A DNA stretch of 64,000 nt. Origin: Closterium sp. NIES-65 (Eukaryota > Streptophyta > Zygnematophyceae > Desmidiales > Closteriaceae). The notes under the pieces are model-generated. The model did no database searches, had not been told where the DNA came from, and worked only from the letters and a program-made list of their open reading frames with translations. Below, piece after piece: positions 446 to 50,931 of the stretch. The position numbers were made by a program, and so were the translations under genes. Positions within the stretch are counted from its first letter, which is position 1, and every line of letters begins with the position of its first letter. The stretch spans positions 1,486,001-1,550,000 of the forward strand of contig CANXME010002579.1 in NCBI GenBank assembly GCA_948144175.1. Direction: 5' to 3'.

Positions 446-562
446 TGAGGGAACGGCAAGGGAGATAAGCACGAGAAATTATAAACCAAGACATACACGC
501 AATGACTACACCTACACTTGCCTAGGAAGCACATGGGAACACCATGACGCAGGAACAGGCGG

Positions 563-2137
563 ATTCTACATCTGATCCGCATCAAGGACGGCGAGAAGAC
601 CCGTCAGAGAGCGATGAAGCTCGCGCACCACCACATTGGTTGCGCCGATCAAGTCGACTGCAGTCGCTGCACGCATCGCACGGCGCAGCCCACGGAGCGC
701 AGTCCCAAGCTGTCCAACGCCTGCAACTCCACCCCGCGCGGGCGCAGCCAACACGGGCGCAAGGAGCTCGGCAAGCCGATCAGCGGCATCAGGGCACTCG
801 TCCAGGGGGCCGCCTACAAGAGGCACACCATGAGACAGAGCCGCGTGGCAATACACCTGGATCAGGTGCACGGCCCGCAGACCCTCAGAAAGGCGCCAGA
901 GTTGCCCGAGTGCCACCTCGGGGACATCCGCCGAAGGAGAAGGCCCTACCAGGGATTGTAACGGAAGATCAGCTGCCGGAGGATCAGGAGCGACACGCAG
1001 CAGGGACGGATACTGCGGCGTCACTGGTGCCCCGCTCGCAGTCACAAACTCCACCCCTGCCACTGGAGGAACCCACGGCAGTCGGAGGCGGTTCCCACGA
1101 GCGGCAGCAGACGCAGCGTGAGCACGAGGAGGAGGAGCGGGAGTCGAGGGAAGAGGAAGAGCAGGCGCATGGGGCGCTGGCGCAGGATGAGACACCGGCG
1201 CAAGAGCGTGGCGCGGCGAATTTCTCAGACTCGCCCGCCCGTTCCGCTCCTCGCGCATCGCGTCAGACACAACTCGTTGCAAGTCGGCCATTGACACCGG
1301 CTGATCATACCTCTAGCCGCCACCGCGACCACGCCCTCCCCACCAGCCTCCTGGGCCGCCGCGAGGTGCAGCCCAATTCGCCTGCGACCCACGGCGGCGA
1401 GGTGAATCGTGACGCCGCCGTGACGTCTCTCGCTCGTCACGCGGGGCAGGGGAATGGGGCCGATTCTACCGACGGCCGGGGGACGGAGGACGTTGTGCAC
1501 GCGGAACATGAGCAAGGGGTGCAGGAGCAGGACCCGCCTGGACGATCGGAGGCGGCACCTTTGCATGCGCAGATGAAGGGGCGGGAGCATCCGGAGGAGA
1601 CACGCGAGCCGACTGAACCTCCGCTCAGCTCAGGCTGGCGCTGGTAGCTGGAAGTGGCTGGTACGTCGGGTCCGCCCCAACAACACCAGAAGGCACCACG
1701 ACAGGCGCGACCAGCGGCGGCGCAGAGGCGTCCAGCAGCTGCAGACGACGCCGCAACCACAGGCACGGGCGCCGGCATGGGGACAGGTGGAACCACCGGC
1801 GCAGGCGCAGAGGCGTGCGCAGGATCAGACGCTGCAACAGGCCCAGGGGCAGGGGCGGGAGCGGACACCGGGGCGAGCCCGGGAGCAAGTGACAACGCGG
1901 GCGCAGGACCAGGCGCCACGCCAGGGGCGGGCAACGTCGCCACGGCGGGTCAGCCGGCGCCAGGACACGGCCATCCTGAGTCACCGACGACGGCGCAGAT
2001 TGAGGTGCGGGAAGAGGCGACATCCCCACAGCCGCAAGCGCCGGGGACGACGAGGCAAGAGGGGCAATTGCAGCTGACCCCACGGCAAAGGGCTGCGGCG
2101 AGTACGAATGATACTCGTCGCCAATCGACACAGGCAT
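563..2137 (-). pseudogene. Antisense SR/RGG protein of E1 (conserved, with stops)
   Basis: The minus frame from an ATG at 2137 to a TAG at 563 is alignable residue by residue with the antisense frames of E4 and E7. Conserved parts in order are SPGRR, HSPAPRDERETSRR, HDSPRRRGSQANW, a GGWWGGRGRGGG block, then DQPVSMADLQRVVSDAMREE, VPEVALGQLWRL, DAADRLAELLAPVLAAPA, and a C-terminus TGLLAVLDADQM followed by TAG. Three nonsense codons (1625, 1466, 1313) break this copy. The basic SR/RGG part suggests RNA or DNA binding and the C-terminus looks helical. No family is recognised. Conservation of this frame against the sense frame is the reason for calling it. Confidence 0.6.
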
Positions 2138-4756
2138 CGCGTGGCGGACGAGGCGGCGGACGTGGAGGAGCGACTGGAAGGGGAGGCGGACCGGAGAATG
2201 GCTTCCAGAGGGAAGCTCGACGCGCCTTAACTCGAAGAGTGGAGAACACAGAAGCTGAGGAGGAGGCAGGAGATCCAACGTTTATAGCGGAGGTGGTGGA
2301 AGAATCCACCACAGAAGAATCGGGGGAGTTTGAGGAGGAGGAACGGGAAGGCAGACATTGGGCAAACCCAACACCACGTCGAGCCGCTTCAATTCCAGCA
2401 TCAACAGGTGGCGAATTAAACCGGACGGTACCGGACACCACCGCATCAGAGACCCGCCAATTCTCACCTGAACAATTGGCCAGGGACTTGGTGCGGTTCG
2501 GCGAGGTAGAATTATGGGACCTGACCCCTTTCCGTGACAGTTGTCAGCCCCCACTCTCGTGCAAACTCCCTGCTGACATTCGCCCACTATTCGCCACAGC
2601 CCTCCTGACACCACTCCTCCACCTCGCGCGTAACCCTGCGTCAGTCGCAGGCTGGCGCCTGCTACTCTTGCTCCCGCGCCTCACCCTTCGCCTGGCGTCA
2701 ACGGAGAAGCCTGATTGGCCGGCGGTCAAGAGCAGACTTCGCCAATTTAACAAAGGCGAATGGCAGCGACTTTACGATTCAACTATTACCGCAATCACAG
2801 GACCACACCCGCCTCGCCACACGCCAGATGCCCTCGGCAAACGTGCCAGGGCAGAAGGCCTCGCACGAAAAGGAAGCCTTCGCAGGGCGATCATCGCCCT
2901 CGAGTCAACGCCGGTCGCTGACCCATCCGCACCCATCCTCGCCGCCCTCAAAGCAAAACACCCCCCCGCGCCACCTGGCATCATCGATTGGAACGTCCCC
3001 GAAACTGTGCAAGCGGCGTCGATCGAAAAGGGGGATTTCATTAAACTGTTGTGCTGTTGTGAGAACGGGGTGGGAGGAGGACTGTCGGGTATGACATTTG
3101 AGCACCTGCGCGACGCATCACTCGCCAACGCGGCGGTTACCACACACCTCCACGCCCTCGTCAATACTATTTTGGGAGGTAAACTGCCCGACGAAGTTTG
3201 CTCGCTATTGACAGCCAGCCGGCTCATAGCTCTGGCCAAGCCTGACGGGGGAGCTAGACCGATAGCAGTAGGCGAATGTATACTACGACTAGCCGCCAAT
3301 TCAGCCCTCTCAGCCCTTTCCAATAAATGCAGTGCGCATTTCCTCCCATTACAGTACTGCGTGTCCGTCCCGGGCGCTAGCGAAGCGATTATCCACGCCG
3401 CGCGGGCCTTCACTTATGCAAACCCAGGAACGCTGATACTGCAAGCCGACTTAGCGAACGCCTTCAACTCGATTAGCCGCGCAGCAGTAGTCAATGCACT
3501 TCGCAACACTGACCTCCAAGGCCTTATTCCCCTCGTCAAAGCATCCTATAGCAAGCCGGCCCAGTTGTTCCTAGACGCGGGGTTTGGTTGCGAAGCACTA
3601 ACTAGCAAGACAGGCGTGCGACAAGGAGATCCGCTCGGCCCGCTGCTGTTCGCCGCTGGGATCCACCCTGTTCTCACCACGACAGCCGCAACCTTCCCTA
3701 CGGTTCTATGCCTCGCATTCGCTGATGACATCACCTTCTTAGGCCCCGCTGCAGACTGTTCCGACGCTTTCCGCCACTTCACGGCTTGCCTACGCGACAC
3801 AGGACTTACCCACAACCCAGGGAAGTGCGCCACGTAGAGCACAGCAGCAACAGACCCCCAGCAACTGCCCGAGGGCGTCCCGCTACGCAGGGAGGGGCTG
3901 AGAGTGCTAGGAAGCTTCATCGGCACAACTGACGGTGCGGCAGCCTTTATACGATCTCAGCTAGAGACACTGTCGTCCCCGCTGCCCCACCTAGCAAAAA
4001 TGGACCCCCAGGTAGCGGCATTACTCCTAACACGGTGTATCTCCAGGCACATCTCATACCTAGCCCGCACCACATCCCTATACCTGTTACCCGAAGCGGA
4101 GTGGTCACGGTGGGGCCAGGCGCTGCTATACACACTCCTAGATGCTTGCGGGGTGCGCCACCCAAGGGGGGAATCAGAAGACACACGTATCTGGGACCAA
4201 GCCTCACTCCCACCAAGCCTAGGTGGCCTAGGCCTCGCCAACCCAGCAGTAGAGGGCCGGTACAGTTTCCTGGCTAGCTTTGTGCAGGCACATACACTTC
4301 TCGGTCAGCTAGAGGGGCAGGCAGGGGCCACTTTGACAGCAGCATTAGACACCCCCGCAGCAGCCGACCACAGCCCCAATGAGCTGCAGAGGTGGATCAG
4401 GGACTGCAGGGACAGCCTCACGCAGGAAGGGAGGGACCTCATCTCGGCGAAGCGGAAAAAACCCAAGGGCCAGCTGCAGCACCGCCTCGCTCTCCTAGTC
4501 CAAGGGGGGCGGAGTGCTGCCCAGATCACCGCGTCGAGACAGATGGACCTGAACCCACTGATGGGCCACACCCAACGCCTCATGTCTCTCACGGGATATG
4601 GGGCAGGGGACTGGCTCATGGCGATCCCCTACATGCCAGCGCTCCGGTTATACCCCTGCCACTTCACGTTCGCCCTACAGTTCCAGCTCGGCATGCCGCT
4701 CTCGGTGCCAGACTGCTGTGATTGCAGCAAACGAGTCCCCATTCCAGACAAGAGGC

Positions 4757-5018
4757 TGTCGAAATATTTTGTCATGTTTTATAACTGCTTGTAGTTGTAG
4801 TTAGTGTAGTTATTTAAACTGTTGTTAGTGGTGCACCTTATTTGGTTTCTATGCTATATGTACCCTTGAACCTATAGTGAAACCATCTTCATTTTCTCCC
4901 ATTTTCCTCTCTCAACTCACTCGATACCTTCCCTAGGGGAAAACCCGCTCGACACCTAAGTTCGGGCCTAGGCTACTAAGCCTAGGCCCCACCTCTCAAC
5001 TTACTTATTATCTCGACA
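4757..5018 (+). repeat. TRIM 5' LTR
   Basis: 262 bp, TG...CA, near-identical to 5754-6015. It contains the inverted motif GGGCCTAGGCTACTAAGCCTAGGCCC near its 3' end, which could fold in RNA. Confidence 0.9.
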
Positions 5019-5032
5019 TGGTATCAGAGCAT
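5019..5032 (+). promoter_or_regulatory. Primer binding site of the TRIM
   Basis: TGGTATCAGAGC directly after the LTR CA end is the classical complement of the plant initiator-Met tRNA 3' end. Confidence 0.85.
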
Positions 5033-5083
5033 TTTTACGACCTGGCCTGTGTGCCCGCCTTACGCTTCCGCGATGAGTTTTTC

Positions 5084-5312
5084 GGTCGCGCGCCTAGGGC
5101 GCGTGACGATTTTTAATTAGTCCCGCCCACGGGTGTGTGGCTCCTTCTCTGCCCGTCGCGCGCCCCGTGGCACGCGACGGTGCCCTTCATCTGCCCATCG
5201 TGCGCCCCATGGCACACGATGGTGCCCTGCTCGTCGTGCGCCCCTAGGCGCACGATCGGGCCCGTTTTCTTCTTCTACCCGTCGTGCGCCCCGTGGCACT
5301 GGCACGCGACGG
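5084..5312 (+). repeat. Five tandem hairpins inside the TRIM leader
   Basis: Five units share a CGCCCC-type loop and a palindromic stem. Stem arms lie at about 5086-5106, 5154-5160/5173-5179 (CGTCGCG with CGCGACG), 5196-5202/5215-5221 (CATCGTG with CACGATG), 5234-5242/5247-5255 (TCGTGCGCC with GGCGCACGA) and 5280-5286/5305-5311. Stem sequences differ between units yet stay self-complementary, which suggests selection on RNA structure such as dimerisation or packaging. That role is inferred. Confidence 0.7.
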
Positions 5313-5753
5313 GCCTTTCTGCCCCTGCTCTCCCTGAAGCCGCCCCTGACCCACTGCACCGACACCTTTTCGCCGCTCTGCAGCTTTCTTCCTTCCCACC
5401 CCCTTCCTCCTTTGTCTCCCTGCATCCGTGGGGAGGAGGGTATGGGGGTGGAGGGTGTTGGAGTGTGGCGTCACCTCTCTCCCTTCCCCTCCTCCTTCTT
5501 TCAGTCCCACCGCTGCAGCTGCCGCTGGGGGGGGAGGGTGTGAGGATGTGGGGGAGCAGGGGGAGTGGTACCGGGGTGGCGGGTGTGAGGCAACATGCAG
5601 CCGTCCCTCCACCTCTCCTCTCTTCCCCCCCTTCTCTGCTGCTCCTGCAGCAGTGTGGGGGAGGGGAAGGAGGAGGGTGAGGAGATGGAAGGGGTACCTG
5701 CTGTTGCTTGCTATGCTGTAACTACATATCTACCTACAAGCATTATGGGGGCG

Positions 5754-6015
5754 TGTCGAAATATTTTGTCATGTTTTATAACTGCTTGTAGTTGTAGTTA
5801 GTGTAGTTATTTAAACTGTTGTTGGTGGTGCACCTTATTTGGTTTCTATGCTATATGTACCCTTGAACCTATAGTGAAACCATCTTCATTTTCTCCCATT
5901 TTCCTCTCTCAACTCACTCGATACCTTCCCTAGGGGAAAACCCGCTCGACACCTAAGTTCGGGCCTAGGCTACTAAGCCTAGGCCCCACCTCTCAACTTA
6001 CTTATTATCTCGACA
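5754..6015 (+). repeat. TRIM 3' LTR
   Basis: 262 bp copy of 4757-5018, ending CGACA and followed by the GAGGC target duplication. The interrupted endonuclease frame resumes just after it. Confidence 0.9.
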
Positions 6016-6816
6016 GAGGCTGCCGAACCACTTGCTGCGGTGCGGGACTGGCCACGGCCGGACTAATACGCACAATGAGCTACGGGACGAATGCATCCGT
6101 ATGGCGCAGGATGCTGGATTTGACGTGCACAAGGAGTGCACCGCCTTCAGCCCGGTCGACAACAAGAAGGCCGACCTGGCCTTCAGGGATGGGAGCTCGA
6201 GGGCAGTGTGGCTGGGAGATATCACAATCACAGACCCCATCAGCAAACGGGACGAAACTGCAAGGAAGGGGAGGGGCTGGGCAGCGCGAGAGGCAGCAGA
6301 TAAGAAGATAGGACTATACCTCGGCAGGGCAGAGTATGTTGGATTTGTCCCGTTGGCAGTAGAAACCTATGGCTGCCCCTGCGATGAGGTACCCACCTTC
6401 CTGAAGCTTATGGCAGATAAAGCTGCACGGAAATTCTCAATGCGGACCCATCTACCTATCAGGCCGCGAAGATGCTCCATCAGTTCCGCCAGCGCTGGTC
6501 CATTGCCCTCCAGAGAGCTCAGGCAGTGAGCTTCCTCACAAAGCTGAACCTGGCAGCACGAGCAGAACACCCCCCACTAGGGGGGCCAGAGGGGGAGATG
6601 AACCCCGGTGACTGCTTCACAACACTAGAGGCACCTTAGAGGGAACAAGGGGGGCGGGGAGGGGGGGGAAGAGAGTAGGGAGGGAGGTGTTTGCTGGCTT
6701 ATCCTTGTGTTTGCTTGCTACTCCTTGTGTTTGCTTGCTTGCCCTTTTTGCTATCTAGGTTCCATCCATAGTCTTTGCATGTCTGTACCTGCCCTTATTA
6801 TCAATACAAAGGACCG

Positions 6817-6819
<3 letters not shown>

Positions 6820-7035: not shown

Positions 7036-7142
7036 TAGGAGGCTGCTTAGGTAACGGGACAACTTTAGCAGACAGCATGGCGACAAACAACATCAACTAG
7101 CAGGCATCATGGAGAAGGTCTACACAAGACAAAGGGGGGCAC

Positions 7143-8444
7143 CTACATGCGGTCCGCCCCCAGAAACAAGAGCATTCCGCGCGTGGTCTGCCACAAGTGG
7201 CGGACCACTGACACGCAGACGGTTAGAGCATCTCCGGGTGTGCCTTCAGCCGACCCTGCAATGTGCCTCAGATCCAGGGCCGCGCGAGCCAGCAGGTTGG
7301 CTGCGTCTGCACCCGGGGAGGGCGCTGCCTACAGTGGCGCCAAGAGGGATAGGATCTCATCCGCCGCCCCCAAGCACGCTGCTTGCGGTTTCTCAGCAAA
7401 TGTGCTCGGGCGGGATATCGGCATCGACGCACGAGTCGACCGGAGAACACGCGCCAGTGCCTCTAGGCACTCCGACAGTATCCACAGCTGACGCAAGGTC
7501 GCCGTGGAACATGAATACTCCGCCTCCTCAAGGCAAGGACGAGGGTCACGATACGGACCCCTTGCTGGGCCTCCGCCAGCGCCAACAAAACCCGGGAGAA
7601 CAGGCGGCCGCTGGACAGAGCGCGGCGGGGACACCGCACGACTGGCTACCTCGACAATGGCGGGAAGAGAACGAGGAGCGTCTGGCGGAACGGAGCGACA
7701 GGCTGTCGCCGCCTGCGACTCACGGAGAGCGGTTGCGAGCACGTCTAGAAGCCTCTCCAAGGCGCGCGCAAGGTCCGACGCAGACTGGCGACCACCGCCT
7801 CCGCGTCCGCGGCCCCCGCGACTGCCACCCCGACCACGACTATTCGACCATGAGCGGGCTGGAGATTGGGGCCGGGACGTGCTGCGCGGGGGGAGGGCAG
7901 GGGATCGCTCACGACGCGATGGAGAATGGCGCCGCCGACGCTTCACCGGCGATTCGCGCGGAGAACGGCGAGCTTGAGAGCGACGCCCTGAGGATCGGCG
8001 TGCGGGTGAATGACCGCGAGGCGAATGGCGAGACGGGGAACGGTGACTTGGCGAACGACGCCCAGGGGAACGGCTGCGGCTCCCCTGACGACGAGGGGAG
8101 CGACGCTCGTGGCGATCTCCACGCCGCCCCTCGCAGCGTTCGTCACAAGGCTCAGGCGTCTGACGATGCGGAGAACGCCCCCGGTGCGGCTCCGCCAAGG
8201 AGCCAGAACGCACAGCGGACTCCACGCGGGTTGCCACTCTCGGAGGCGAATCAGCGACACGCGGCCCGGGAGGACGGCGCAGGCCCTCAAATCGACGCCG
8301 GATTTGGTCCGCAACAGCAGGAGGACGAGCAGGAACGCTCACCGCCGGGCGTGGCGGAAGCACAGGTGCACTCTCCGCGGTGCACTCGCGGTCGTGGGCA
8401 GACGGAAGCGCCATCTGCGCAAGCACAAGGTGCAAATCCAACAC
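7143..8444 (-). pseudogene. Antisense SR/RGG protein of E2
   Basis: The minus frame is open from 8444 to a TAG at 7143 with one internal TAG (7329). It is in the same phase relative to the RT frame as in E1, E4, E5 and E7. The N-terminal half is strikingly SR-rich (SRSRSPGRRSPSHRSPSRHS), followed by GRGGSRGGRGRGGGG, then DLARALERLLDVLATALRES, which aligns with the MADLQRVV helix of E1. The C-terminus (LGAADEILSLLAPL, TTRGMLLFLGADRM, TAG) aligns with the E1 C-terminus, including the stop position. No ATG matching the E1/E4/E7 start was found, so the 5' limit is uncertain. Confidence 0.55.
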
Positions 8445-10053
8445 AAGGGGAGCCTACAACCCCAACTCTCCCCACGCAACAGGCGGCGCTAGCAGCACGG
8501 ACCCCGCAGAGCGGACGGGGAAGCGCGCGGGGGAGAGGATCGCGACGAGGAGCGCGCGTGCGATAGAGGAGCGCAGTTCAAGCGGCGAGGGGGCGCGGGC
8601 GCCAACCACCGAGCCCAATCTGGCTAGGGGAGCCGGCGGAACGAATCACGCGGCAGTCGTTCGTTAGGCGCGGGGCGAGAGGTGGTGCACCAGCGCAAGC
8701 AGGGAGGAACGTCGATATCCTCAGAGAGGCGAGCGACGAGGACTATATACCGTCAGATCTGAGGCAACCAGACAATCCCGACTCACCTCGCGCGGAATCA
8801 GGAGAGGAGGTGGCGCAGCAACGGGAGAGAGGAACCAACCGCAGATAGCAGCGCAGAGCCCAGCCCCCACCGGACCAAGCCCTATCTGCGTCCTAGCTGG
8901 CCTCGCGGGAGGATCTTTTCCAGATCGCGATGACCTGGGACCTTACGCTCCTAACATCCATCGCTCACCAACCAATCGTCCGCCGACTGCCGCCGCAGAT
9001 CCTCAGCGACTACTCCACCTGTATGCTGGCTGCCTTACTCCGGATCTCAAAGCTGCCTAATTGCGCGGGAGCGTGGCGGGTCCTCATGTTCCTGCCACGT
9101 CTCACGCTAAGACTTAGCCGGAGATCCAGCTCTAGGTGGAAACTACTGCGGGCACAGATGCATCTATTCCAATGTGGCCACTGGACCCAGCTGTACACCG
9201 AATACTTGGGGGCAATGCACCTGGCCGAACCACCCCAGCACCAACGTGACCCGCTGGGAATCTGCTCACGTGCGGAGGGGTTGGTGAAAAGGGGTAACCT
9301 GCGAAAGGCGTTAGCGGCCCTTCAACCCTCGCCATCAGCACCAGCGACACTCGCGACACTGCAGCAGCTGGAATCGAAACACCCCCAACCCCAAAATGAC
9401 CTGCCCGACTGGGTCCACTCCTACACGACACCCACACAGTTTTCAACCACCCTGGAAAGCTTTTCGGACGTCATCGGGGAATGCCCCAGGGGAATTGGGG
9501 CTGGCCCATCGGGGTCAACCTTCGAACACTACCGCGATCCAGCGCTAAGTAACATCGAGGTACTAGGGCACCTCCACTCCGCCGTTAATCACCTTCTCTC
9601 GACAAACCTTTCCACCGAGGTTGCAGCCCTACTCGCCCCGTCCCGCCTTATAGCCTTCGCCAAACCAGGGGGTGGGGTACGCCCAATCGCAATTGGAGAA
9701 ACATTGCTTAGGCTGGCGGCGAAAGTGGCACTCTCAGACCTGCAAGGAGAAACGCGAAATTACTTCCTACCTCAACAATTTGGCGTCGCAGTCCCGGGAG
9801 GTGCTGAGTTCGTCATCCATGCAGTCAGAGACCTCACTACCATGCAGCCCTCCAGCCTAGTCCTCCAACTCGACATTGAGAACGCGTTCAACTCAGTCAA
9901 GAGGAGCGCGTTCTTCAACGCGCTTATCGGCTCCTCGCTAGCCCCCCTCATCCCCTTCACACGCTCTTTCTACGCAACACCATCACCGCTGCTGCTAGAT
10001 CCATGCTTTAATTCCACAATACTCACCAGCGGAAGAGGAGTCAGACAGGGGGA

Positions 10054-10185
10054 TGAGAAAGTACGAACGAGAAGTGAAATGACTATGAACGAAGTGAGTA
10101 CAAATAGGAAACCCTAATTGGGTTGTACCCCCTATGGGATACCCCACTATAGCCTACAGAAACAAGTAAGCTATAAGTTCTGACA
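10054..10185 (-). mobile_element. Solo LTR of the Copia-1/2 family in E2
   Basis: 132 bp starting TGAGAAAG and ending TTCTGACA, flanked by GGGGA duplications (10049-10053, 10186-10190). It is colinear with the 136-bp LTRs at 20280 and 27817 (AAATAGGAAACCCTA, GGGTTGTACCCCCTATGGGA). No internal region is present, so it arose by LTR-LTR recombination. Removing it rejoins the RT motif RQGDPLGPLL of E2. Orientation follows Copia-1. Confidence 0.92.
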
Positions 10186-12040
10186 GGGGATCCCCTCGGA
10201 CCCCTGCTATTCGCGGCGTCTATCCAGCAGCACCTCAGGCACGTGGCAGCGGAGCACCCGGAAGTCACCGTCCTCGCGTACGCAGACGACATAACCATGA
10301 TTGGACCCGCGACGGCGACGCTAGACGCGCTACGGGAGCTCACGCCGCTACTAGCATAGGATGGCCTCACCTGCAACTTCATGAAGTCGTCGGCATGGTC
10401 CTCCATGCCGCTTGGAGGTGTCATGCTCCCTGAAGGCCTCCCCCACACCCACGAGGGGGTACGGGTGTTGGGAAGTCCTGTGGGGTCGCAGAGCTTCTGC
10501 TCTGCCTCTGTCCGCAGTACCCTGACAGACGCGGCAGCCCCCTTGGGTTCTCTGGCGTCCATCCACCCACAACATGCCCTCCTGCTACTGACCCGTTGCA
10601 TCAGCCGCAGAATCGGCTACCTGCTACGCACTACCCCAGCAGACGTCTTACCCCTCTCGGAATGGCACACATGGTGCTCCGAACTACTGCACACAGCCCT
10701 GACCGCTGCCAGCATTCAACCGCCACGCCGAGAAGCCGAGTTCAGCCTCCTGCTCCGACAAGCAACTCTTCCAGTCGCCCTGGGCGGGCTGGGACTTACA
10801 GACCCCACAACAGAAGCAGCACCGGCCTACCTGGCATCAACGACGGAGGCGCTACGACTGCTCCGCTCCCTTGACCTACCAGCAACCACGGCACTGGGGG
10901 CCAACAACAACACCCTGCAGCCGTCCGCAGCGCACTCGGTAACCATCCAGGACATGGAAGGGCGCCTGCCGCCGCTGGCGCTTCAAAACCTCCGGGAGGA
11001 GCAGCAAACCCCGTCCCAAGACCAGCTGCAACGCGCCCTCTCTCAGGAGGTGCACGCGGCAAAGGCCGACGCCCTGACGGAGGAGTCATGCACCATCTAG
11101 TCAGCCCCCGAGATGGGTCACTCCCTCCGCCTCATCACCGTGAGAGGGGATGGAGCAGGAGCATGGCTGCAGGCCCTACCTTTGACCCCGGACCTCTGCT
11201 TCTCACCAGGACAATTCCGAGCAGCCCTGGCCTTCCGCATGGGCATCCGCCAGAATGTACCCACTGTGTGTGAGTGTGGAGAACTCGTAGCCGGCTGCAG
11301 CCTACCCAACCACCTACTCCGCTGCAGCACAGGCCCCGACAGGACACGCACACACAACCAGCTAGCTTTTGCCGTGGCTAGAATGGCAAGGGAAGCAGAG
11401 CTGGTGGTATACCTGGAGAACGCCATGTACTCACCGCCGGATGACCCGAAGAGAGCCGATGTGATTGTACGCAACCCGGACAGTGGAGAGACTTGGATCA
11501 CAGACACGACTATCACCGACCCCGTGCTGCAGAACCGGGACCCCACAGCCCGCAAACCCCCAGGCTGGGCTGCTAGAGAGGCACAAAGGCGGAAGGAGAG
11601 GGAGTACTACCGACACACGGAACACGTGGTGTTCTGCGCCCTAGCCGTCGAGACCTACGGGGCAAACGCGCCCACCACGACCGCGTTCCTGAAGCTGCTG
11701 GCCACGGCAGCGGCTAGGAACAGGTTCAGGGCCAACCCCTTGGCAAAATCGGCCAAGAAGATGGCCTGCCACTTCAGCCAGCGCTGGTCAGTGGCCCTCC
11801 AGCGCTCCCAGGCGAATGCCCTGCACACCAAGGCCAGGGCTGGGATCGAGGCAGCGCACCCCCAGATGGCAGCGGACCCCTGGCCGCTGCACCTGGGGGA
11901 CATCCTCCACACGCTGGAGGGCTAGAGGGTCACTCTGTGGGGGGGTGAAGAGTGGTGAGCTTCGGGGCTTAAGGGATGGAGGCTATCATGGATAGCACCG
12001 CATGTTTGTACCCCTGCTGAACTAATACAAAGGACCGTTT

Positions 12041-12054: not shown

Positions 12055-12109
12055 CGGGAGAGGATAAGGGAATGTAGATGAATGTAGGGTTGGCTTGCAT
12101 GTTCTGCTT

Positions 12110-15906: not shown

Positions 15907-15909
<3 letters not shown>

Positions 15910-17259: not shown

Positions 17260-17551
17260 GCACCTAGGCCTCTACCCTTAGCCTATTGTTCGGTTATTCA
17301 TACTCCTAACCGAGCGGCTCGCGAGAGAAGAGAGTGAGAGAGAGAGAGAGGCACCTAGGCCTCTTCCCTTAGCCTCTCAGCCCTTGTTCCTTTGTATAAA
17401 GGCTCTAGCAGCCAGCCTAGCTCCTCATTGTTCGGTTATTCATACTCCAAACCGAGCGGCTCCCGTGTGAGAGGTGGCAAGATACACACAAGACAAGCTA
17501 CTATAGGCAAGCATACAAGCATGGCACACAAAACACTAGCCTAGGATAAGC
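17260..17551 (+). promoter_or_regulatory. E4 tandem 5' UTR monomers
   Basis: Two copies of a unit starting (GA)n GGCACCTAGGCCTCT begin at 17245 and 17335. Only the second has TGTATAAAGG (17394). Both contain TTCGGTTATTCATACTCC and the GC-rich CCGAGCGGCTC hairpin arm. The first unit seems to have lost the TATA section. An internal GA run at 17335-17350 separates them, so the dimer could come from a second insertion event or from unequal exchange between GA runs. Confidence 0.6.
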
Positions 17552-20279
17552 ATGGAGCAAGAGGAGCCCGCATCCACACGCGGTGAGCTCCTGGGGCACG
17601 CGGACGCTACACCTGATCCGCGTCAAACACAACAAGCAGCCCCGACAGCGTGCGATTCAGCTCACGGCGCCAGATCTGACCAAGGGTCACCTCCGGAACT
17701 GGGACCGGACGCTGAGGCCCCAGTAGGGCCGAGAACGGGTACATCGCACCTGCGGACGGGGGAGAGGGATCAACAGGCGGTAGGGGCGTATACTGCGCAG
17801 CAACGGGGACATGAGGAGGATGAACAATTGCAGGAGGACGATGGGCGGCCAGGTCAGGAGGTGCAGTTGGTGGAGGTGCCACTGGAGTCTGAACAACACG
17901 CGGGGAGTGGCTCTAGCTTGCCTGTCCGTTCCGCTCCTCGCGCACAGCAGCAGACACCGCGCGTTGCAGATCAGCCATCGTCACCGGCTGATCAGACCCC
18001 CAGCCGCCACCCCGCCGTTGCGGCCCCCACCAGCCGCCTCGGCCGCCGCGTTGCGCCGCCCAGTTTGCCTGAGAACCGCGGCGCCGCGGGGAATTGTGGC
18101 GGCGCCGAGACGTCGCGCGCTGGTCCGGACGCGCAGGGGATTGGGGCCGCTGCTGACGACGGCCAGGAGACTGCGGATGCGGAGCGGACGGGCGCAGAAG
18201 GATCTACCACCAGTGGCGCAACGGGAACGGCCACAGGCGGCGCAGACAGACCCGCCTCATGCGGAGCTAGCAAAGCAACAGCAGGCTGAACAACAGGAGC
18301 GACCCTAGGCAGCGCAAGAGGAGCACCCGCAAATGGTGCAGGGGGTGCATTCACAGGAGGCACGGGAGGTACAGCCACGGCCTGTGCAGGAGCAGACCCC
18401 GCCTGCAAAGGCGGAAGAGGCGCCGGCGTCGGAGGCGGCGCAGACGGGGGAGTCGGAGAGGCGGGAAGCGCCGGCTGGCCCTGGACGTCAGTGGTGGCGG
18501 AACCCACCGACCGTGCCGGCACGTCGCCACCAACAATCGCCCGCTCGGCGGGCGCAGACGGAGCGGCGGGGTCGGCGCCAAGAAGAACGCCAGGCGGAAC
18601 AGCCACATCAGATGTCGCAGCGAGAGGGACAGACGGAGCGGGAGGAGCAACAATGGGATAGACGGGACAGCCGCGTTCACGTCATGGGGAGCCGTGGATA
18701 CGAGGGGAAGAGTCGTTTCAGCGCCTATTGTCACGGGCTTCGGAGCAAACGGAGGCGGGGACCCCGTCGCCATGGTGCCCGCTCCGGAGACAGACGACGG
18801 CATTCCGAACGCAACCGACGCAGCGCCAGCGCGCATTGGTGAGTAATCGGTCACACCAGCAATCACCATCGCGTGAACGTGGAGCGCGAGGCGGAGGACG
18901 TGAGGCAGCTAGCGGACGGGGAGGAGGGCCGGAGAATGGCTATCAGACGAAGGCACAAAGGGCTTTAACCAGGCTAGATAATGAGGAAGAGAGAATGGAC
19001 CCCTCTTATAGGGAGGAGCCCATGCCCTCAAGCGAGGATGAGGAGACGGAAGGAGAGGAAGGAGCTAGGGAGAACGGGAGGAGGACGGGAGCAAGACCAA
19101 GGCAGTCACTTGGCGAGCAAAGAGACACTGCTGGTGGACCGTCCGATGCTGATCGTACAGGCAAAATTCCAACCACATCAGCACAAGCGAGGACGGGCCG
19201 CACCAGGCGACATCACGCCGCGACACATACGACAGCGGCGCGAGAAAATCCCATTCTCCCTTGCTATTTTACGCTAGAGGAGCTGGCGATGCGGGCAGAT
19301 TGGTTCGCGAACATCGCGAACTAGGATATCACTGCCCTCTGCGATAGTCGGCAGCCAACTCTGGCACGGCGGTTACCGCCGAACTTGTGCCAGTTGTTTT
19401 CACTAACTTTGCTGACCCCGTTGCTGCACCTGTCGTGAAACCCGGAATCAGAGGCAGGTTGGCGCCTTCTACTCTTCCTGCCATGCCTGACGCTTCGCCA
19501 AAGCTCGCCAAGGAAACCGAACTGGTCCCAGATCAAGGCCCGGCTCCGAGCTTTCCAGTGTGGCGAGTGGGACCAACTGTACAGGGACGCGTGCGAAGCA
19601 GTCAACTCACCTGCGCCACCACGTCATCAGCCCGATACTACCGGGGTCATCAGCCGAGCCGAGGGCCTGGCAAAGCGTGGTAGCCTGCGCAGAGCCGTGT
19701 TGGCGTTAGAGTCAACACCAGTCTGCACACCAACACCCGAAATTCTGGAGGAGCTCCGACGGAAACATCCGCCAGCCGAAACAGGACAAACGACGTGGCC
19801 ACCCACACCCGAGAAAAAAATATCAATCACCCACGCTGACTTCGCCAGACTGATGGGGAGGTGCGAGAACGGGGTCGGTGCCGGACCATCGGGAACAACC
19901 TTCGAGCATCTGCGCGATGCGGCAGTGACGAACGGGAGGGTCAGCACCCATCTGCACGCATTGATAAACACTATTTTGGGGGGCAACCTACCAGCACCGG
20001 TGGCAGACCTACTGACAGCCTCGCGACTCATAGCCTTGGCCAAACCTGGTGGGGGGGCTCGACCAATCTCGATCGGCGAGTGCATCAATCGACTGACAAC
20101 TAAGGCAGCCCTCGCAGCCACGGGCGAGGCTGCACGTGACTATTTCCTGCCTCTACAGTACGGGGTGGCTGTGCCAAGAGGAGCCGAGGTAGTTATCCAC
20201 GTGGCACGGGCGTACCTGGACAAACTACCCAACAGCCTGGTGCTGCAGACTGACATCTCGAATGCATTCAACAGCATAT
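17552..20279 (+). pseudogene. E4 RT-RLE polyprotein, 5' half
   Basis: Plus frame from ATG 17552 with stops at 18287 (TGA), 18659 (TAG) and 19322 (TAG, in place of the Trp of EWDILPL in E7). The sense-conserved part starts around 18810 (TQRQRALV, QQSPSR, GGGPENGYQ, RALTRLD), followed by an acidic tract. The expected RRLPPN segment at about 19370-19690 is read in another frame (local frameshifts). RT then continues with GVGAGPSGTTFEHLRDA, RPISIGECINRL and TDISNAFNSI, ending at the Copia-1 insertion. Confidence 0.8.
17607..18869 (-). pseudogene. Antisense SR/RGG protein of E4
   Basis: Starts MVIAG at 18869, as in E7 (MVIAG at 49401), and ends FDADQV with TAG at 17607. The central Pro/Ala-rich part has moved to another frame (open 17992-18606), so two compensating indels are needed. 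Back in phase it reads SPGRRQQRPQSPARPDQR, SRRRHNSPRRRGSQANW, RGGRGGWWGPQRRGGG, DQPVTMADLQRAVSAAVREE, and VPEVTLGQIWR joined directly to RELNRTLSGLLVVFDADQV. The helical block between those last two parts, present in E1 and E7, is deleted in frame. Homology to E1 is clear although the sense strand opposite is much less alike. Confidence 0.6.
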
Positions 20280-20415
20280 TGTGGAGAAGAGAATGAGAAT
20301 GGATTGAACTATGAATGAAGTGAGTACAAATAGGAAACCCTAGCTGGGTTGTACCCCCTATGGGATACCCCACTACAGCCTACACAATAGTATAAGCTAT
20401 ATATATGTTCTGACA
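20280..20415 (-). repeat. Copia-1 3' LTR
   Basis: 136 bp, TGTGGAGA...TTCTGACA in plus reading, matching 27817-27952. Next to it, CACCCCCATAGGCAAAGTGG is the complement of the element's polypurine tract region. Confidence 0.92.
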
Positions 20416-34881: not shown

Positions 34882-35522
34882 TGTTATGTGATGCTATCAT
34901 TTGCATTCACGTCTGTCTGCCTCCCATCATGTGTTCGTGCGTTGCATGCGTGAAATGAGCGTGCGCAAGAATTTGTGTTTTCTGTGGTTTGGGTTTTTGG
35001 AGTGTGTGTGAATGCTATTTGGCTTGAGCAGATATCTGAAGTGACTCCACTGCTCAAGATCTTTCCAACAAGCCAAGGATTGCTTCAATCGGAGCACGAA
35101 CAAGAAAGTTATGAACTTTCGAAGTTCGTATGCTTTTCATATTTGATTGTGGCAACTGTGGGAAGTTGTGGGGTTGACTCCATATGGGGTACAGACTTTT
35201 GGGGGTTGGGAAATTCGAACCCATCACTGTAGATGCTGCAATGTGGTTGGGAGGTTGGCAAGTGTGGCCAAGTTGGAGTGAGGTGGATTATGGAGGTTGG
35301 GATAGAGACAAAGGTCAAAGTTGGGTTGCCTATGAGGAAGGGAATTGTGTGGCATGGAGTTTCCTTGGTTGGGGACTCCTTGGGGACCTTCCCTCTCGTC
35401 CTCCTCTTCCCTCCTACCTGGTTTAGTGCTACTCTAACTTTCTTGTGTAGCAATCTTGAGAATTGTGAGAACTCTTGTGATTGAGTTAAGTTCTTATGGC
35501 AGCATACCCCCCTATGCGCCGA
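34882..35522 (+). repeat. Copia-3 3' LTR, truncated
   Basis: Matches 29554-30203 with small changes, including a ~20-bp deletion (GGAGAAGCCAAACCAGGTTG missing near 35252). It stops at GCGCCGA. The remaining ~230 bp and the right target duplication are absent; E5 sequence begins at 35523. Confidence 0.85.
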
Positions 35523-35536
35523 GGGAAAGACAGCAG

Positions 35537-36847
35537 CTACTCAGACAGGATCCAGCAGAGTCTCCCGTCCATCCAGCGCAGGACGGATGCGGCTACTGAC
35601 ACGAGGCCGAGTGGGGCCCCCCGGACAGACTCGGCAAGTTGCAGCAAAGGCCGGGGGCCGGGCTCGAGCGCAGCATCAGGGGAGCCGGGCACGTAGCCAA
35701 TCAAGGGGAGGAAATGCTGCAGCTCCCCCGCTGCTAACTCAGCCGCCGCCCGTTCGGTTGGCGACAAGCCCTCGATCTAAAGACCCTATCGGGACAGGCA
35801 CAAATGAAGCTGATCAAGCACGTATGACAGGAGAGTCAGACAAGTCCCCACGTTCATTGCGCGCTCAGCGACGCCATCAGGGAGGCTCCCGTCAGCAGGA
35901 CTCCACCCCGCCCCAGGAAGCACAGCCTGTGGAGCCGGCGGCGCTGGAGAGGTCAGCAGTCCCCATGGGATTGGCACCTCCTGCCCGCCAACGAAGAGCC
36001 GAGGGTACGAGCCTGCGCTCAGCCCGGCCTGAGAAGGGGAGGAGGAGCGAGTGGGAGGAGACGATGGGACCGGAGCGGACGGAGGAAGAGGCTGCTGCTA
36101 CAGTGGAGGCTGGAACCGGCGCTGAGGTTGCGGCGGAGACGGTGGAGGCCGCGACGGCTGGTGCTGTGGCTGTGGCGGTGCCCGAGGCGGTTGTGAATAC
36201 GGGGCCTGAGGCTGCGATTGGTGGGACAACTGGCGCAGCTGCTGCTGCTGGCGTGCCTGCCGCTGCCTCTGACGACGGCTCCGTTTCACATTCTGCCACC
36301 CCTCATACTGGGCCACTGTCTCCCGAAGAGCGGGAGCCGCCGGCGGAGGAGGGGCGGGCAGGGGAGGGGGAGCTGGCTGCGTCCCCGGAGCCGATGGGGC
36401 CGGCCGTGATTGCTGCGGTCGTGACTGCCGTGGAGAGACGGGATGGCCAGCCGAACGGCGAGGAGCGTACGGCTGCCTCTGAGTTCGCCGGAACTTCTGT
36501 TGCTGACGAGGGCGCAGACATGCAGGGGCACGGCCAGGCGGCGGGCGATAGTCAGGGGCCCGTGAACGGCGCTCCTTCCGGCGTCTCAAAAGCGAAGCCG
36601 AAGAGGAAGCTGCAGGTACAGCCAGCGCCGAGACGGCCCGGAGCAGGCCTGGGACCCGGCGCCCCGGGACCCCTCCTGGGCTGGCTTCTGCAAGGGCAGC
36701 CGCCACGAGAGTCAGAGCATTGGGGGGCATCTCAGGGCGCGCCCGCACTGTCCGCCGCCACGCAAACGGCTTCGCATGCGCCAACGACAAGGGCGCCGAA
36801 CTTGGGGGGAGGTGAAGGAGTGGCACAAGCTGCAGTGGTGGCACCAA
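35537..36847 (-). pseudogene. Antisense basic protein of E5
   Basis: In the same relative phase as the antisense frame of E1, E2, E4 and E7. A 250-codon open block (36847-36098) is rich in Arg/Pro/Gln (RRRKERRSRAPDYRPPPG, RQQQKFRRTQRQPYAPRR, QYEGWQNVKRSRRQRQRQ) and ends at a TAG at 36095. The phase continues through further stops to a hydrophobic C-terminus (LGLVSVAASVLRWMDGR, CWILSE) and a TAG at 35537. The C-terminus resembles the E1 end in pattern, not in sequence. The upstream limit is unknown. Confidence 0.4.
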
Positions 36848-38156
36848 CAGGAGCAGGTGGGGACAATACGGTGGCAGCAGTAGGCACCAAACGCTCAGCG
36901 AGACTTGGGGCGATCACGTGGGTGCCGGCGGGCCGTGGCAACGGCGTGGTGGAAACGGCGGGAGCAGCAGGAAGGGGACAACGCGGGGTTTTACGCGGGG
37001 GGACGAGAGGCGGAAGGGGAGGGCGCATTCAAGCGCCTAGGGCGGAGATACCAGTGAGAACCGGCCCCTGGCAAGAGCGCCACGATAGGCCAGAGAGAGT
37101 GCTCCTGCAGGCGGAGGGGGAACAGGAGGCTACTGACAACCAGGGAGCCGACCCTGCCGGGGAGGAAGAAACCTCAGAGGAGATCTCTGTGGACGATGAG
37201 ACCACACCCAGGAGAAACAACCCAGAAACCCGGGCAAGGGAGGTGGCGGCGGGCATCCCAAGTAACACAGGGGAACCTGTAGCTACTGCCACGGAGGAGA
37301 CCGACGTGCCCTCTCCAGCTGAGCTGGCACGCGACGATGCCATCTGGAACCTGGCAGGGGAGTGGAATGTGGACGTGCTTCAGAGGGGGGACCAGCCATT
37401 CCTCGTCCGCCGGCTGCCACCACAAATCCTAGACAGATACTGTCTGTGCATGCTGGCGACGCTTATCCGCCTCGATACACACCCGAGCTGCCTGGGTGGC
37501 TGGAAAGCGCTGCTGTTCCTGCCGAGGCTCACTCTTAGGCCAGCACCCGAACCTGTTCTGGGGAGTCGCTGGGCAGGGATTGAAACACGGCTGCACAAGT
37601 TTCAACGAGGCGACTGGGCCGAGCTTTTCGAGGAGGCAGGGGTTATCCCCGACACAGGCAACCCGGTACGACACCAGGCAGATGTGGAGGGGATTTGTGC
37701 ATGGGCGGAAGGTTTAGTGAAAAAAGGAAACATTGCGAAGGCGGTGGCGGCGCTGCGAACAAGCCCTATGGCAGAGGCAACACTGGCTACACTCGAAGCT
37801 CTGCAATCGAAACACCCTACAGCGGGGAGCCCAATACCGGCCTGGGTTACCGGAATCACAGACTCCGAACTCACGGTCCCGCTGGATTCGCTTCGTGAAA
37901 TCCTAGCGAAATGCCCGAACGGGGTGGGGGCTGGACCGTCCAGCACTTGTTTCGAGCACCTCAGAGACCCAACCCTGGCCAATGAAGAACTGCTGCTGCT
38001 TTTCGCCAAGGTCGTCAATCGTCTGCTCAGCACCTATCAAGCCTCCCATGTTCGAACACTCCTCTTGCCTTCTCGTCTGATCGCTCTAGAGAAACCGAAT
38101 GGTGGCGTGCGACCTATAGCGATAGGCGAAACGCTGCTCCGCGTAGTAGCAAAGGC
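35587..38156 (+). pseudogene. E5 RT-RLE polyprotein, 5' half
   Basis: Open for ~857 codons up to the Copia-2 insertion. The first ~400 residues are Ala/Glu/Gly-rich. Then come RGVLRGGTRGGRGGRIQAP, GPWQERHDRPER and a D/E-rich part (TSEEISVDDE), matching E3 and E6. The RT N-terminal domain follows (RRLPPQILDRYCLCML, LLFLPRLTLRP, ICAWAEGLVKKGNIAKAVAAL), then GVGAGPSSTCFEHLRDP and RPIAIGETLLRVVAKA. The reading past 38156 is LTR sequence. Confidence 0.85.
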
Positions 38157-38287
38157 TGTCAGAACATTATAGCTTATGCTGTTGTGTAGGCTATAGTGGG
38201 GTATTCCATAGGGGGTACAACCCAATTAGGGTTAGTACTTGTACTCACTCATTTCATAGTTCATTCATTCTCGTTCTACTTTTCTCA
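38157..38287 (+). repeat. Copia-2 5' LTR
   Basis: 131 bp, TGTCAGAACATT...TTTTCTCA, followed at once by TGGTATCGAGCAGGTT, the primer binding site (38288-38303). Confidence 0.92.
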
Positions 38288-47960: not shown

Positions 47961-48011
47961 GACGTACAAGCAATGGCAACCTCATCCGCCTAGGAAACAC
48001 ACGGCACAACG

Positions 48012-50931
48012 ATGGAGCAGGAGGGGGAGGACGCTAGAACTGATCAGCGTCGAGAACAGTAAGGAGCCCAGTCAGAGATTGGTGCAGCTCCCGCACCGCC
48101 GCCGTGCTTGCGCCGATCACATCGGCTCCAGAGCCTACGCGCAAAATCCGCCGCAACCCACGGACAGTTGTACCAAGCTGCCCAACACCCGCAATTACGC
48201 CCATTGCGGGCGCAGCCAACACGGGCGCCAGTAACTCCGCGAGGCGATCAGCAGCATCAAGCAACTCATCCCTCTGGCGACCATCTAGAGAGCCGCCACG
48301 AGAGAGAGCGGCATGACCATGCGCCTGGATCATGTGCACGGCCCGCAAGCCCTCTGCGAGGCGTCACAGCTGGCCAAGAGACGCCTCAGGGACTTCAGCC
48401 ATGGGAGGAGGTTCCCCCAACGCCGGGAACGCCGGCGCGTCACCGGCTGCAGACTGAGGGGGTGGCGCGGCAGGAGGAACCCATGGCGGGATCACGTGAC
48501 GCCCAGGAACCGCAGCAGGAGCAGGGGGGGCGAGTGGAGGAGGAGCAATAGCCACAGGAGGAGGAGACACTGTCACAGGAACAGAGACGGGAGAGGGAGC
48601 TGGAGGAGCCGTCGCAAGGCGCTGCGCGGCCCTCTCCTCGCGAATCGCCGCTGAGACGACGCGCTGAACGTCCGCAAGGGACACAGGAGGAACATACGCC
48701 GGGCCACCGCCATAACCGCGACCCCCCCACCAACCGCCGCGACCGCCGCGATGCCAGTTTGACTGTGGGCGGCTACGACGGGGAGAGTCGCGGCACCGGC
48801 GCGACGATTCCCGCTCCTGACGGGGAGCAGGAGAGTGGGGATGCGAGGAGCGACGACCAGGTGACGGCTGGCCCCGCGGCTGCCCCACAGGTGCAACAAC
48901 AGGCGCCGCTTGAGCTGGCACTGCCTGCTCCACAATCGGGGCCTGGCCGCCAGTGGTGGCGGACACCGCCATCGGCGATGAAGCAACGGCCGCAGCAGGC
49001 GCGACAGGGTCAACAACGGCGGGTGCAGATACAGGGATACGAGGAACGGGTGGGGCAACAGCAAGGTCAGCCACAGCAGGCGGTGCCACAGCGCTCGCGG
49101 GGACGGCGGACGGAACAGCAGGAGCAGCAGGTACAGGAGCCTCAACAGGAGGCGGAGGGTCCGATTCGGCAACAGAGGGCGACGGAACAAGCAGTGGTGA
49201 CGGAAGAGCCGAGCTCGCCACGGGGAGCGGGTCCACAGGCAGAGAGGCAACAGCGGCAGAGGGCGCCGGCTTTGGGGCAGGCGGGACTGGCGGCTTCAGG
49301 GCTGCACTCCCCGAGGCAGACACCGGCGGGGACCTTCCGCTCGCCGCTGACACAGCGGCAGCGGGCTTTGGTGATGGCCACGAGTCGCCAGCAATCACCA
49401 TCGCGTGGCGGGAGAATACAAGGGACGGGGCGGAGTGAAGGACGTGGAGCTAAGGGTGGTCCTGAGAACGCGTTCCAGGCGGCGGCAAGAAGGGCTTTAA
49501 CACGGCTCGATGAGAATACTGATCCGGAAGAAAGGAATGACCCCTCTTATAGGGAGGAGGCGCATGGGTCGAGCAGCAGCAGCAGCGAGGAGGAAGACGA
49601 AGAAGAAAGGGAGAGCTTGTCAAGACGAAGGGAAGGAGGACAGAGAAACACAGCAGTAGAACCAGAACGCAGGGAAGGGCATCAGGATGCAGATTGGACG
49701 GCCACAATTCCAACCCCGCCCTCTGCTCATGCCGCAAGCCGCGGTCGTAGAAATCGGACCGCAAGAGGGCAGGCAAGTGAGCCACGTCAGCCCCAAATTT
49801 CCCGCTACTTTTCGCCAGAGGAATTAGCGGGGCAGACAGACAAATTCGCAGAAGTGGCAGAGTGGGACATTTTACCGCTGAGCGACAGTCGCCAGCCGAC
49901 GGTGTTACGTCGACTACCGCCAAAAGTGCGAGATATTTTCACTCGCAATACTAACACCCCTTCTCCACCTCTCGCGAAACCCTGACTCCATCGCGGGTTG
50001 GAAGTTACTTCTGTTTCTCCCTCGCTTAACATTGCATCAAGCCTCGCCGAGACGACCTGATAGGCCCAAAATCAAGGCCCGCCTCCAAGCTTTTCAACGC
50101 GGCGAGTGGCAGCAGTTGTATTCAGACGCGGTAGAAGCAGTCAATGCTCCTCCCCCACCACGTCACCAGCCTGACGACGTGGGAATCATCAACAGAGCCG
50201 AGGGCCTGGTGAAAAAAGGGAGTTTGCGCCGAGCCGTGTTGGCGCTCGAGTCAACGCCAGTGTGTACACCCAGCCCACAAATACTGGACGAGCTCGGACA
50301 CAAGCACCCGCCGGCTGACCCCGAACCGCTGACCTGGCCAACCAGCGCAGACCCAGCCAAGCTTGAGACTGCATACGCTGACTTCACAAAGCTGCTGAGT
50401 CGATGCGAGAATGGCGTGGGGGGCGGTCCGAGTGGGATGACATTTGAGCACTTACGCGATGCGTCAGTGACAAACGCATCGGTCTCCACCCATCTGCACG
50501 CCCTCGTTAATATGATTTTGAAAGGAAACCTGCCACAGCCAGTCGCCGAACTGCTCACTTCCTCGCTCTTGATTGCACTAGCCAAACCATAAGGGGAGGC
50601 TCGGCCAATCGCAATTGGCGAATGCCTGACCCGCCTAGCGGCGAAAGCCGCGCTGACGACCCTGGGCGAAGCGGCGCGCGGCTACTTCCTTCCGCTGCAG
50701 TACGGAGTGGCAGTGCTAGGGGGGGCAGAGACAATCATACACAGTGCACGTACACACATCGACAAAAACCCTAACAGCCTCGTCCTGCAAACCGATATCT
50801 CCAACGCCTTCAACAGCATCTCTTGCCAAGCAATGGTGACAGTGGTTCAAGACCCCGCCTTTGTAACGCATGACCTAGTCTGCCTAATCTACGGCTAACT
50901 TCCAAAGTCAAACATCGAGAGACTTCCTCGA
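48012..50931 (+). pseudogene. E7 RT-RLE polyprotein, N-terminal part
   Basis: One plus frame from ATG 48012 (MEQEGED) has a TAA at ~48060 and TAG at ~48549 in the low-complexity part. A good internal start is MATSRQQSPSRGG at ~49376, just before the sense-conserved block GGPENAFQAAARRALTRLDE. RT motifs: WDILPLSDSRQPTVLRRLPP, GVGGGPSGMTFEHLRDAS, TAA at 50590, RPIAIGECLTRLAAKAAL, TDISNAFNSIS. A frameshift lies near 50897. Confidence 0.82.
48034..49401 (-). pseudogene. Antisense SR/RGG protein of E7, nearly intact
   Basis: The best-preserved antisense frame: 455 codons from MVIAGDSWPSP (49401) to VLDADQF and TAG (48034), with one TGA (48364) exactly where E1 and E4 have the Trp of LGQLWR. Order: Pro/Ala/Val-rich N-terminus (~190 residues), SPGRRSSHPHSPAPRQERES, SRRCRDSPRRSRPQSNW, RGGRGGWWGGRGYGGG, PPVSLADVQRVVSAAIREER, Pro-rich linker, EVPEASLGQL, LRAVHMIQAHGHAAL, DAADRLAELLAPVLAAPAMG, VRELHQSLTGLLTVLDADQF. 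The basic middle suggests nucleic-acid binding; the end is probably a helical interaction domain. No known family is recognised. Confidence 0.62.

Follow-up and report, generated by a model that had tools for sequence, protein, structure and literature searches.

A probable protein-coding gene conserved on the antisense strand of a LINE family in Closterium sp. NIES-65

Introduction

Can a retrotransposon carry a protein-coding gene on the strand opposite its own reverse transcriptase (RT) frame? The question is raised by a 64,000-nucleotide stretch of the 874-Mb genome of Closterium sp. NIES-65 (contig CANXME010002579.1, positions 1,486,001-1,550,000; hereafter the window), which holds five copies (E1, E2, E4, E5, and E7) of long interspersed nuclear elements (LINEs) that share one orientation and are separated by Copia- and gypsy-like elements (named by eye). 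At least 146 matches to the chlorophyll-binding family occur in this genome; one of these light-harvesting proteins has a multi-domain chain (9vfj) as its top PDB hit, with plant-type chains such as 8htu and 8c29 next, which points to a photosynthetic eukaryote and probably to a streptophyte. A sequence-only reading had proposed that the antisense strand of these LINEs encodes a conserved protein opposite the 5' third of the RT frame. Open frames that overlap from opposite strands are frequent in the window, Copia-like elements included, and long opposite-strand gene overlaps under selection are rare and disputed in eukaryotes. We labelled the copies clade A (E1, E4, and E7), clade B (E2), and clade C (E5), and found relatives of them, intact ones included, elsewhere in the genome (loci with L numbers). 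The comparisons make it very probable that a conserved antisense protein gene lies inside the LINE.

Results

Codon positions separate selection on the two strands

In the overlap, the third antisense codon position pairs with sense position 2, the second with sense position 3, and the first positions with each other, so that selection on the sense protein and selection on the antisense protein predict opposite patterns of change. Nucleotide alignments give no advantage to either frame. In those of 22 sequences, which form 231 pairs and include some copies retrieved under two loci, antisense position 3 was the most changed in all 199 pairs below 90% identity, and it held the majority of all changes in 35. 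Seven sequence-disjoint pairs gave rates of 0.188, 0.206, and 0.389 at antisense positions 1, 2, and 3 (0.109, 0.103, and 0.204 for transversions only). CpG mutation was rejected as the source of this signal, because the excess persists in transversions and when CpG-context sites are removed (0.181, 0.165, and 0.308), and also when both restrictions are applied together (0.100, 0.073, and 0.138; P values for the disjoint pairs range from 1.5e-49 to 1.2e-5, with changes taken as independent). When L039 is scanned at 300-bp resolution against L041, L042, E1, L040b, and E7, changes follow the antisense pattern between about 900 and 2400 and the sense pattern past 2700, with mixed counts in between (2401-2700); L039 has its antisense start codon at 2413.

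We then estimated the ratio of nonsynonymous to synonymous change (dN/dS, omega) in an overlap-aware manner, scoring every change for what it does to both reading frames. Over 19 pairs aligned by codon with the antisense protein as guide (an alignment with frame-shifted ends in L021 and L019, which also underlies the rates of the seven disjoint pairs), omega was 0.22-0.47 in the antisense frame and 0.53-1.09 in the sense frame. The 95% interval of the antisense value was below 1 in 18 of the 19; the remaining pair, L041/L046, is too similar for this. Plain nucleotide alignments of the same pairs gave 0.18-0.41 (antisense, interval below 1 in 19 of 19) and 0.55-1.07 (sense). As a control, the RT region of L041/L039 had an omega of 0.23 in the coded frame and 1.65 in the opposite frame, and in three other control pairs the coded frame was saturated and the opposite frame reached 1.20-1.44. 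An antisense ratio near 1 together with a lower sense ratio had been named beforehand as the outcome that would overturn the sequence-only reading, and the opposite was seen. The selection it had proposed on the antisense frame is thus backed by omega, by the position-3 excess, and by the change of pattern at the antisense start, which by comparison of sequences show purifying selection on the antisense protein.

Both frames are open in the overlap

The sense frame across the antisense open reading frame (ORF) was compared with shuffles in which the antisense protein and its codon counts were fixed and synonymous codons were permuted (2000 shuffles for each of nine clade A ORFs, that of E7 being partial). 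Sense stops number zero in L039, L041, L042, L043, and L045, one in L040b, L046, and E7, and seven in L044, against shuffle means of 7.1-14.1 over all nine ORFs and 7.1-11.7 over the eight with zero or one stop. The observed value was reached by none of the 2000 shuffles in six ORFs, by one in two ORFs, and by seven in the remaining one. One opposite-strand frame is fixed by construction of the shuffle and hence uninformative, and the other one open to the test has no depletion of stops (lowest in L044, 162 of 2000). Clade B behaves similarly, with no sense stops in L048 (6.1 expected; 1 of 2000) and two in L056 (7.3 expected; 15 of 2000). By this measure, the sense frame is shown to be kept open beyond chance. 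The reverse shuffle, which permutes synonymous sense codons, gave no antisense stops in nine of nine ORFs versus 3.4-6.4 expected, with 1-53 of 2000 shuffles reaching zero, a test biased by the choice of loci for their long antisense ORFs.

A putative TATA box precedes most antisense starts

A scan for the antisense start motif returned 43 rows (mutually overlapping loci and one chance match in the window), 37 of which have a TATA-type box within 260 bp upstream. From these rows, 19 start sites were picked to stand for different copies. In 16 of them the box precedes the antisense ATG by 134-150 bp, and 18 of the 19 leaders lack an earlier ATG; the sites are related and so do not count as independent cases. 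A deletion of the box is common to L027 and L028. The box is located inside the sense coding sequence, where the sense residues vary (Y-R, Y-I, Y-M, Y-T, and F-I) while TATA is kept. The Tyr codon at the box is TAT in 12 of 12 cases, whereas the RT prefers TAC (15:4 in L039 and 11:2 in L045). The comparison shows conservation of the putative antisense TATA box, and clade B has TATATA at the matching sense D-Y-I-P site.

The predicted antisense protein is shared by two clades

The predicted antisense protein begins with MVIAG, MPVALG, or a variant. A Pro/Ala-rich part comes next, then an SR-type stretch, a glycine/arginine stretch flanked by Trp, the short helix-like segment MADLQRxVSxAxREER, and finally a conserved C-terminal region of roughly 125 residues. 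Its length had been put at about 455 residues, which agrees with the 453-501 amino acids (aa) measured in eight copies with a clear start.

RT identity over aligned parts is 43-46% between clades A and B and 36-46% between clades A and C. At this depth, the L042 antisense protein matches E2 by tblastn (35% over 133 aa, E 2e-7), and a profile alignment in global mode of the clade A and clade B C-termini has a probability of 99.4 at 36% identity. By these comparisons the antisense C-termini of the two clades are homologous. Antisense position 3 also leads within clade B (L048 versus L056, 74, 109, and 171 changes at positions 1, 2, and 3) and within clade C (L064 versus E5, 100, 118, and 179; versus L062, 95, 116, and 146; versus L066, 95, 111, and 152). 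Profile alignment with one clade C sequence detected no homology of the clade C antisense protein to that of clade A.

A Pfam search with 10 antisense proteins returned only three families at chance level (best E 0.15), with neither TRP28 (PF04195) nor bZIP among the matches at E<=1, and a profile search of the PDB with the antisense protein gave a single match at E 0.48; a known domain was rejected on these values. Relatives in viral contigs were likewise rejected, as none of 52 pattern matches was confirmed. Its composition suggests that the protein may bind RNA and oligomerise.

The LINE family

Protein searches of the genome yielded at least 189 matches to the E1 antisense piece, many in open frames of 480-680 codons (a lower bound, with 150 of 32,229 candidates scored), 106 to the E2 antisense frame, and 142 to that of E5, a count that Pro/Ala-rich composition may inflate. 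Of 40 loci from the E1 and E2 searches, 34 have sense RT sequence where it is expected by side and strand, which shows linkage of the antisense frame to a LINE; the six loci lacking it are L015-L018, L023, and L025. Both ORFs are complete in L039, L043, and L045, in which the sense frame spans 1,587, 1,576, and 1,575 codons from stop to stop, is unbroken from the leader-proximal ATG, and faces a complete antisense ORF. RVT_1 scored above its cut-off in E1 and in the window frame 58321-60948, and slightly below it in E2. Among solved structures, the L039 RT is closest to R2 proteins (9nl3, E 3.3e-8; 9dou, 4.4e-8; 9nl2, 4.7e-8). By eye, we also noticed residues resembling the C-terminal restriction-like endonuclease and CCHC motif of the R2-like lineage.

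The 3' untranslated region (UTR) of L039, L040, L041, and L042 is followed by an (AG)n tail (by eye), a simple-repeat 3' tail. No long terminal repeats (LTRs) were noticed at the element ends read, and no search was aimed at LTRs in these loci. Copies are arranged head to tail (L039 5734-6180, L040 5734-6180, both ends of L042, and window 526-20293), and in L039, L040, and L042 a copy begins after the (AG)n tail of another, as if new copies inserted into such tails.

The 5' leader contains repeated promoter-like units, each with a TATA box, beside (GA)n runs (L039 482-832; L042 reverse 333-850). It also has a GC-rich core that is almost invariant in six aligned leaders while the coding parts are about 70% alike, and that could fold as two hairpins with TTCG-type loops (L039 820-900, L041 about 800-870, L040 6040-6100, two places in L042, and L045). 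The eight Rfam matches to these elements (L039, L041, and L042 with their leaders; E 0.09-0.69) are all far under the gathering score, and assignment to an Rfam family was rejected. In four leaders a 7-codon upstream ORF precedes the sense start by eye (MASHTSS, MSSRTAA, MAHTTLA, and MASPTAA; L039 about 938-961, L040 about 6145, L041, and L042). L043 and L045 are near-identical at the sense N-terminus/antisense C-terminus and diverged elsewhere, which suggests recombination between families.

The copies in the window

Coordinates of the window copies are collected in Table 1. The copies themselves are degraded, the antisense frame of E1 being broken between 2137 and 569 and stops or deletions occurring in E2, E4, and E7. 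The sequence-only reading had described the antisense strand as open in the same phase in all five copies. Opposing open frames do overlap in every one of them: E1 526-1644 (+) and 569-1312 (-), E2 7055-8563 (+) and 7332-8453 (-), E4 17540-18286 (+) and 17995-18681 (-), E5 35485-38169 (+) and 36101-36913 (-), and E7 48552-49982 (+) and 48367-49449 (-). The common phase holds in E1, E2, E5, and E7 and fails in E4, which is frame-shifted, with its antisense frame at 17995-18681 out of common phase relative to 17540-18286; the conserved antisense block at about 17625-18191 is in the common phase, yet contains a stop.

Table 1. LINE copies and antisense features in the window (position 1 is the first nucleotide of the window)
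Feature	Position	Strand	Remarks
E1 clade A LINE sense frame, leader-proximal ATG (544) to RT, three pieces	544..4791	+	RVT_1 E 3.4e-15
E1 antisense ORF, interrupted	569..2137	-	start MPVSIGD at 2137, stop just below 569
E1 antisense TATA box	2281..2286	-	149 bp upstream of antisense ATG
E2 clade B LINE	7055..11922	+	N-terminal frame 7055-8563, RT 8897-10114, C-terminal frame 11101-11922
E2 antisense ORF, RS-rich, glycine/arginine stretch, C-terminal domain	7146..8414	-	internal stop 7329-7331; start codon uncertain
E4 clade A LINE, degraded	17540..20293	+	
E4 antisense ORF region	17610..18869	-	start MVIAG at 18869; frameshift, stops, deletion in C-terminal domain
E5 clade C LINE sense frame	35485..38169	+	895 codons
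E5 antisense open frame, common phase	36101..36913	-	homology to clade A/B protein undetected
E7 clade A LINE, sense frame of 5' third	48552..49982	+	
E7 antisense ORF, MVIAG...DADQF	48037..49401	-	internal stop 48364-48366; TATA box 150 bp upstream of ATG

The ordered antisense blocks reported for E1, E4, and E7 are present in all three, and DAADRLAELLAPVLAAPA occurs in both E1 and E7 as had been noted. In the MADLQR block of E1 and E4, 9 of 14 antisense codons differ, five silently and four as S/T, V/A, D/A, and M/V, as earlier described; the coordinates given at that time were about 7 bases off, the true positions being 1253-1294 (E1) and 17940-17981 (E4). The accompanying remark that sense codons are altered there and never silently proved correct, with 7 of 13 sense codons differing and none silent. 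Among the three clade A copies of the window alone, antisense position 3 is the most changed in all three pairs, with 36, 41, and 89 changes at positions 1, 2, and 3 for E1/E7 (P 6e-8), 28, 34, and 54 for E1/E4 (P 0.002), and 64, 61, and 94 for E7/E4 (P 0.002). The comparisons as a whole support the earlier idea of a conserved antisense protein on a LINE, and add to it the antisense TATA box at near-fixed spacing, the switch of pattern at the antisense start, and the homologous protein in a second clade.

Other repeats were seen in the window. An identical 262-bp direct repeat (4757-5018 and 5754-6015, 997 bp apart) lies on the 3' side of E1, and a tandem array with a 31-bp unit in 14 in-register copies occupies 27133-27752. 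Copia-like frames at 29556-35522 are flanked by repeats (29556-30206 and 34884-35522) that are 97-100% identical, so this is probably a young LTR element.

Discussion

We read the element as an ambisense non-LTR retrotransposon with an R2-like RT and convergent promoters. Its sense transcript, starting from the TATA-bearing 5' leader, would serve both as template and as mRNA for an RT protein of about 1,580 aa, consisting of about 480 N-terminal residues under low constraint followed by the RT and a C-terminal part. Running backwards across the DNA of the sense N-terminus would be a second gene, 453-501 codons long and equipped with a start, a stop, and a TATA box of its own; the transcript from this internal box would be the mRNA for an accessory protein. 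Both promoters may fire convergently, giving transcripts that would overlap by about 1.5 kb, and the antisense protein may bind the element RNA and be needed for mobility. These parts differ in how firmly we hold them. That the protein is an RNA-binding accessory factor, an ORF1-like ribonucleoprotein component, is a serious possibility that stops short of being probable. We entertain more tentatively that the lineage is ambisense in the full sense, with convergent promoters, an antisense protein required for mobility (in effect a minus-strand ORF1), and the other frame selected mainly for openness.

Several observations pull the other way. All copies compared stem from one genome, and the whole case is built by comparing sequences. 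At 90% identity or above, just 4 of 32 pairs have position 3 in the lead, and among recent copies of clade B the counts hardly differ by position (L048 versus L047, L049, L050, L051, and L052); we read the weak signal in close pairs and recent copies as drift after insertion. Within the scan, the signal is weaker in 2101-2400, where L039/L041 is tied, and positions 5401-6000 in the 3' part of E1 do not follow the sense pattern. The 19 omega pairs, out of 120 that could be formed, draw on 16 sequences, several of which recur. A sense omega near 0.8 may reflect weak constraint on the sense frame, as its interval excludes 1 from below in 4 of the 19. At the antisense start, 3 of 19 sites have no TATA box and one leader carries an ATG; in clade B the box is 335-364 bp upstream of the Met used, with other ATGs between, which leaves the start uncertain in that clade. 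No known domain turned up in the protein, so that its suggested role is weakly supported.

Four other explanations have to be set against these data. G+C-rich, codon-biased genes can leave the opposite strand open, and the G+C of the window (0.48-0.69 in 2-kb steps), like its many overlapping frames, suits a spurious antisense ORF behind a selected sense frame. Such an ORF predicts the reverse of the position-3 excess and of the omega values, and the absence of antisense stops in all nine ORFs, biased as that test is, also speaks against it; a chance origin was rejected on phase counts, scan, shuffles, and omega, and we consider this explanation scarcely credible. It is also very improbable, though a little less so, that what is conserved is an antisense RNA or promoter acting in regulation or silencing, with coding secondary. 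The conserved TATA box would fit this, as would TRE5-A, a LINE with a minus-strand promoter (PMC4559204), but a non-coding RNA does not predict the third-position excess, the conserved start and stop, or amino acid conservation across two clades.

The other two explanations accept the antisense gene. If it alone were real, the sense frame opposite would be accidental and the RT would start near the antisense start, making the two genes divergent. Sense residues under the antisense gene are indeed nearly unconstrained, and the sense pattern sets in at the start of the antisense gene. This arrangement is nevertheless unlikely, given that sense openness exceeds chance in all nine clade A ORFs (at most 7 of 2000 shuffles), that the sense frames of L039, L043, and L045 run unbroken from the leader-proximal ATG, and that no conserved sense Met is seen near the boundary in the translations (by eye). 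The antisense protein could instead regulate transcription, silencing, or RNA processing, an alternative about function only that leaves the coding claim unaffected and that we regard as possible rather than probable. Other retroelements have antisense proteins that are known or suspected nuclear regulators, namely HBZ (PMC10186651) and the TRP28 proteins of Retand elements (PMC11963269), as the available text of these papers has it. None of the 10 antisense proteins has a bZIP or TRP28 match at E<=1, and the RS and glycine/arginine stretches would by their composition suit RNA binding better.

Our reading of the element as ambisense can be placed beside known systems. R2 proteins are the nearest solved relatives of the L039 RT, and one long sense ORF is found in L039, L043, and L045; the antisense gene, the (AG)n tail, and the head-to-tail copies set the Closterium element apart. 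R2 inserts site-specifically in 28S ribosomal DNA and is not known to carry an antisense gene.

The systems with antisense features are described here as far as the available text of the cited papers goes. Primate L1 ORF0, which the sequence-only reading took as the nearest parallel, is a loose one only: like our ORF it is read antisense at a LINE's 5' end, from an antisense promoter (putative in our case), but it has 71 aa and lies in the 5' UTR (PMC8554170), whereas the ORF described here is not a short 5' UTR frame but encodes 453-501 aa opposite the RT ORF, under purifying selection and with its TATA box inside sense coding sequence. The plant LTR elements Retand, Grande, and RIRE2 carry antisense ORFs, mostly TRP28, between pol and the 3' LTR (PMC11963269); they resemble our case in having an antisense protein gene as a lineage feature of plant retroelements, and differ from it in that ours is a LINE, with overlap of the RT ORF and no TRP28 match. 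HBZ of human T-cell leukaemia virus 1 (HTLV-1) is a bZIP protein driven in antisense from the 3' LTR (PMC10186651), likewise an antisense protein gene on a retroelement, unlike ours in its bZIP domain. Dictyostelium TRE5-A is a LINE with its own minus-strand promoter, as predicted for ours, located there at the 3' end, with no antisense protein mentioned in the available text (PMC4559204). In none of L1 ORF0, the Retand type, HBZ, and TRE5-A, as so described, is a long conserved antisense protein encoded across the RT ORF of a LINE. Among the titles and abstracts listed by literature searches, which covered few subscription papers and no preprints, none described a LINE with a long conserved antisense protein.

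Coding on both strands would be very unusual for LINE-class elements. The phase of this overlap separates the two frames, and the many natural copies serve as replicates, so that the split is clear: selection preserves the amino acids of one frame and the openness of the other. The arrangement raises the question of how the element would tolerate complementary RNAs from its own body, and of whether a LINE without a sense ORF1 can place such a function on the other strand.

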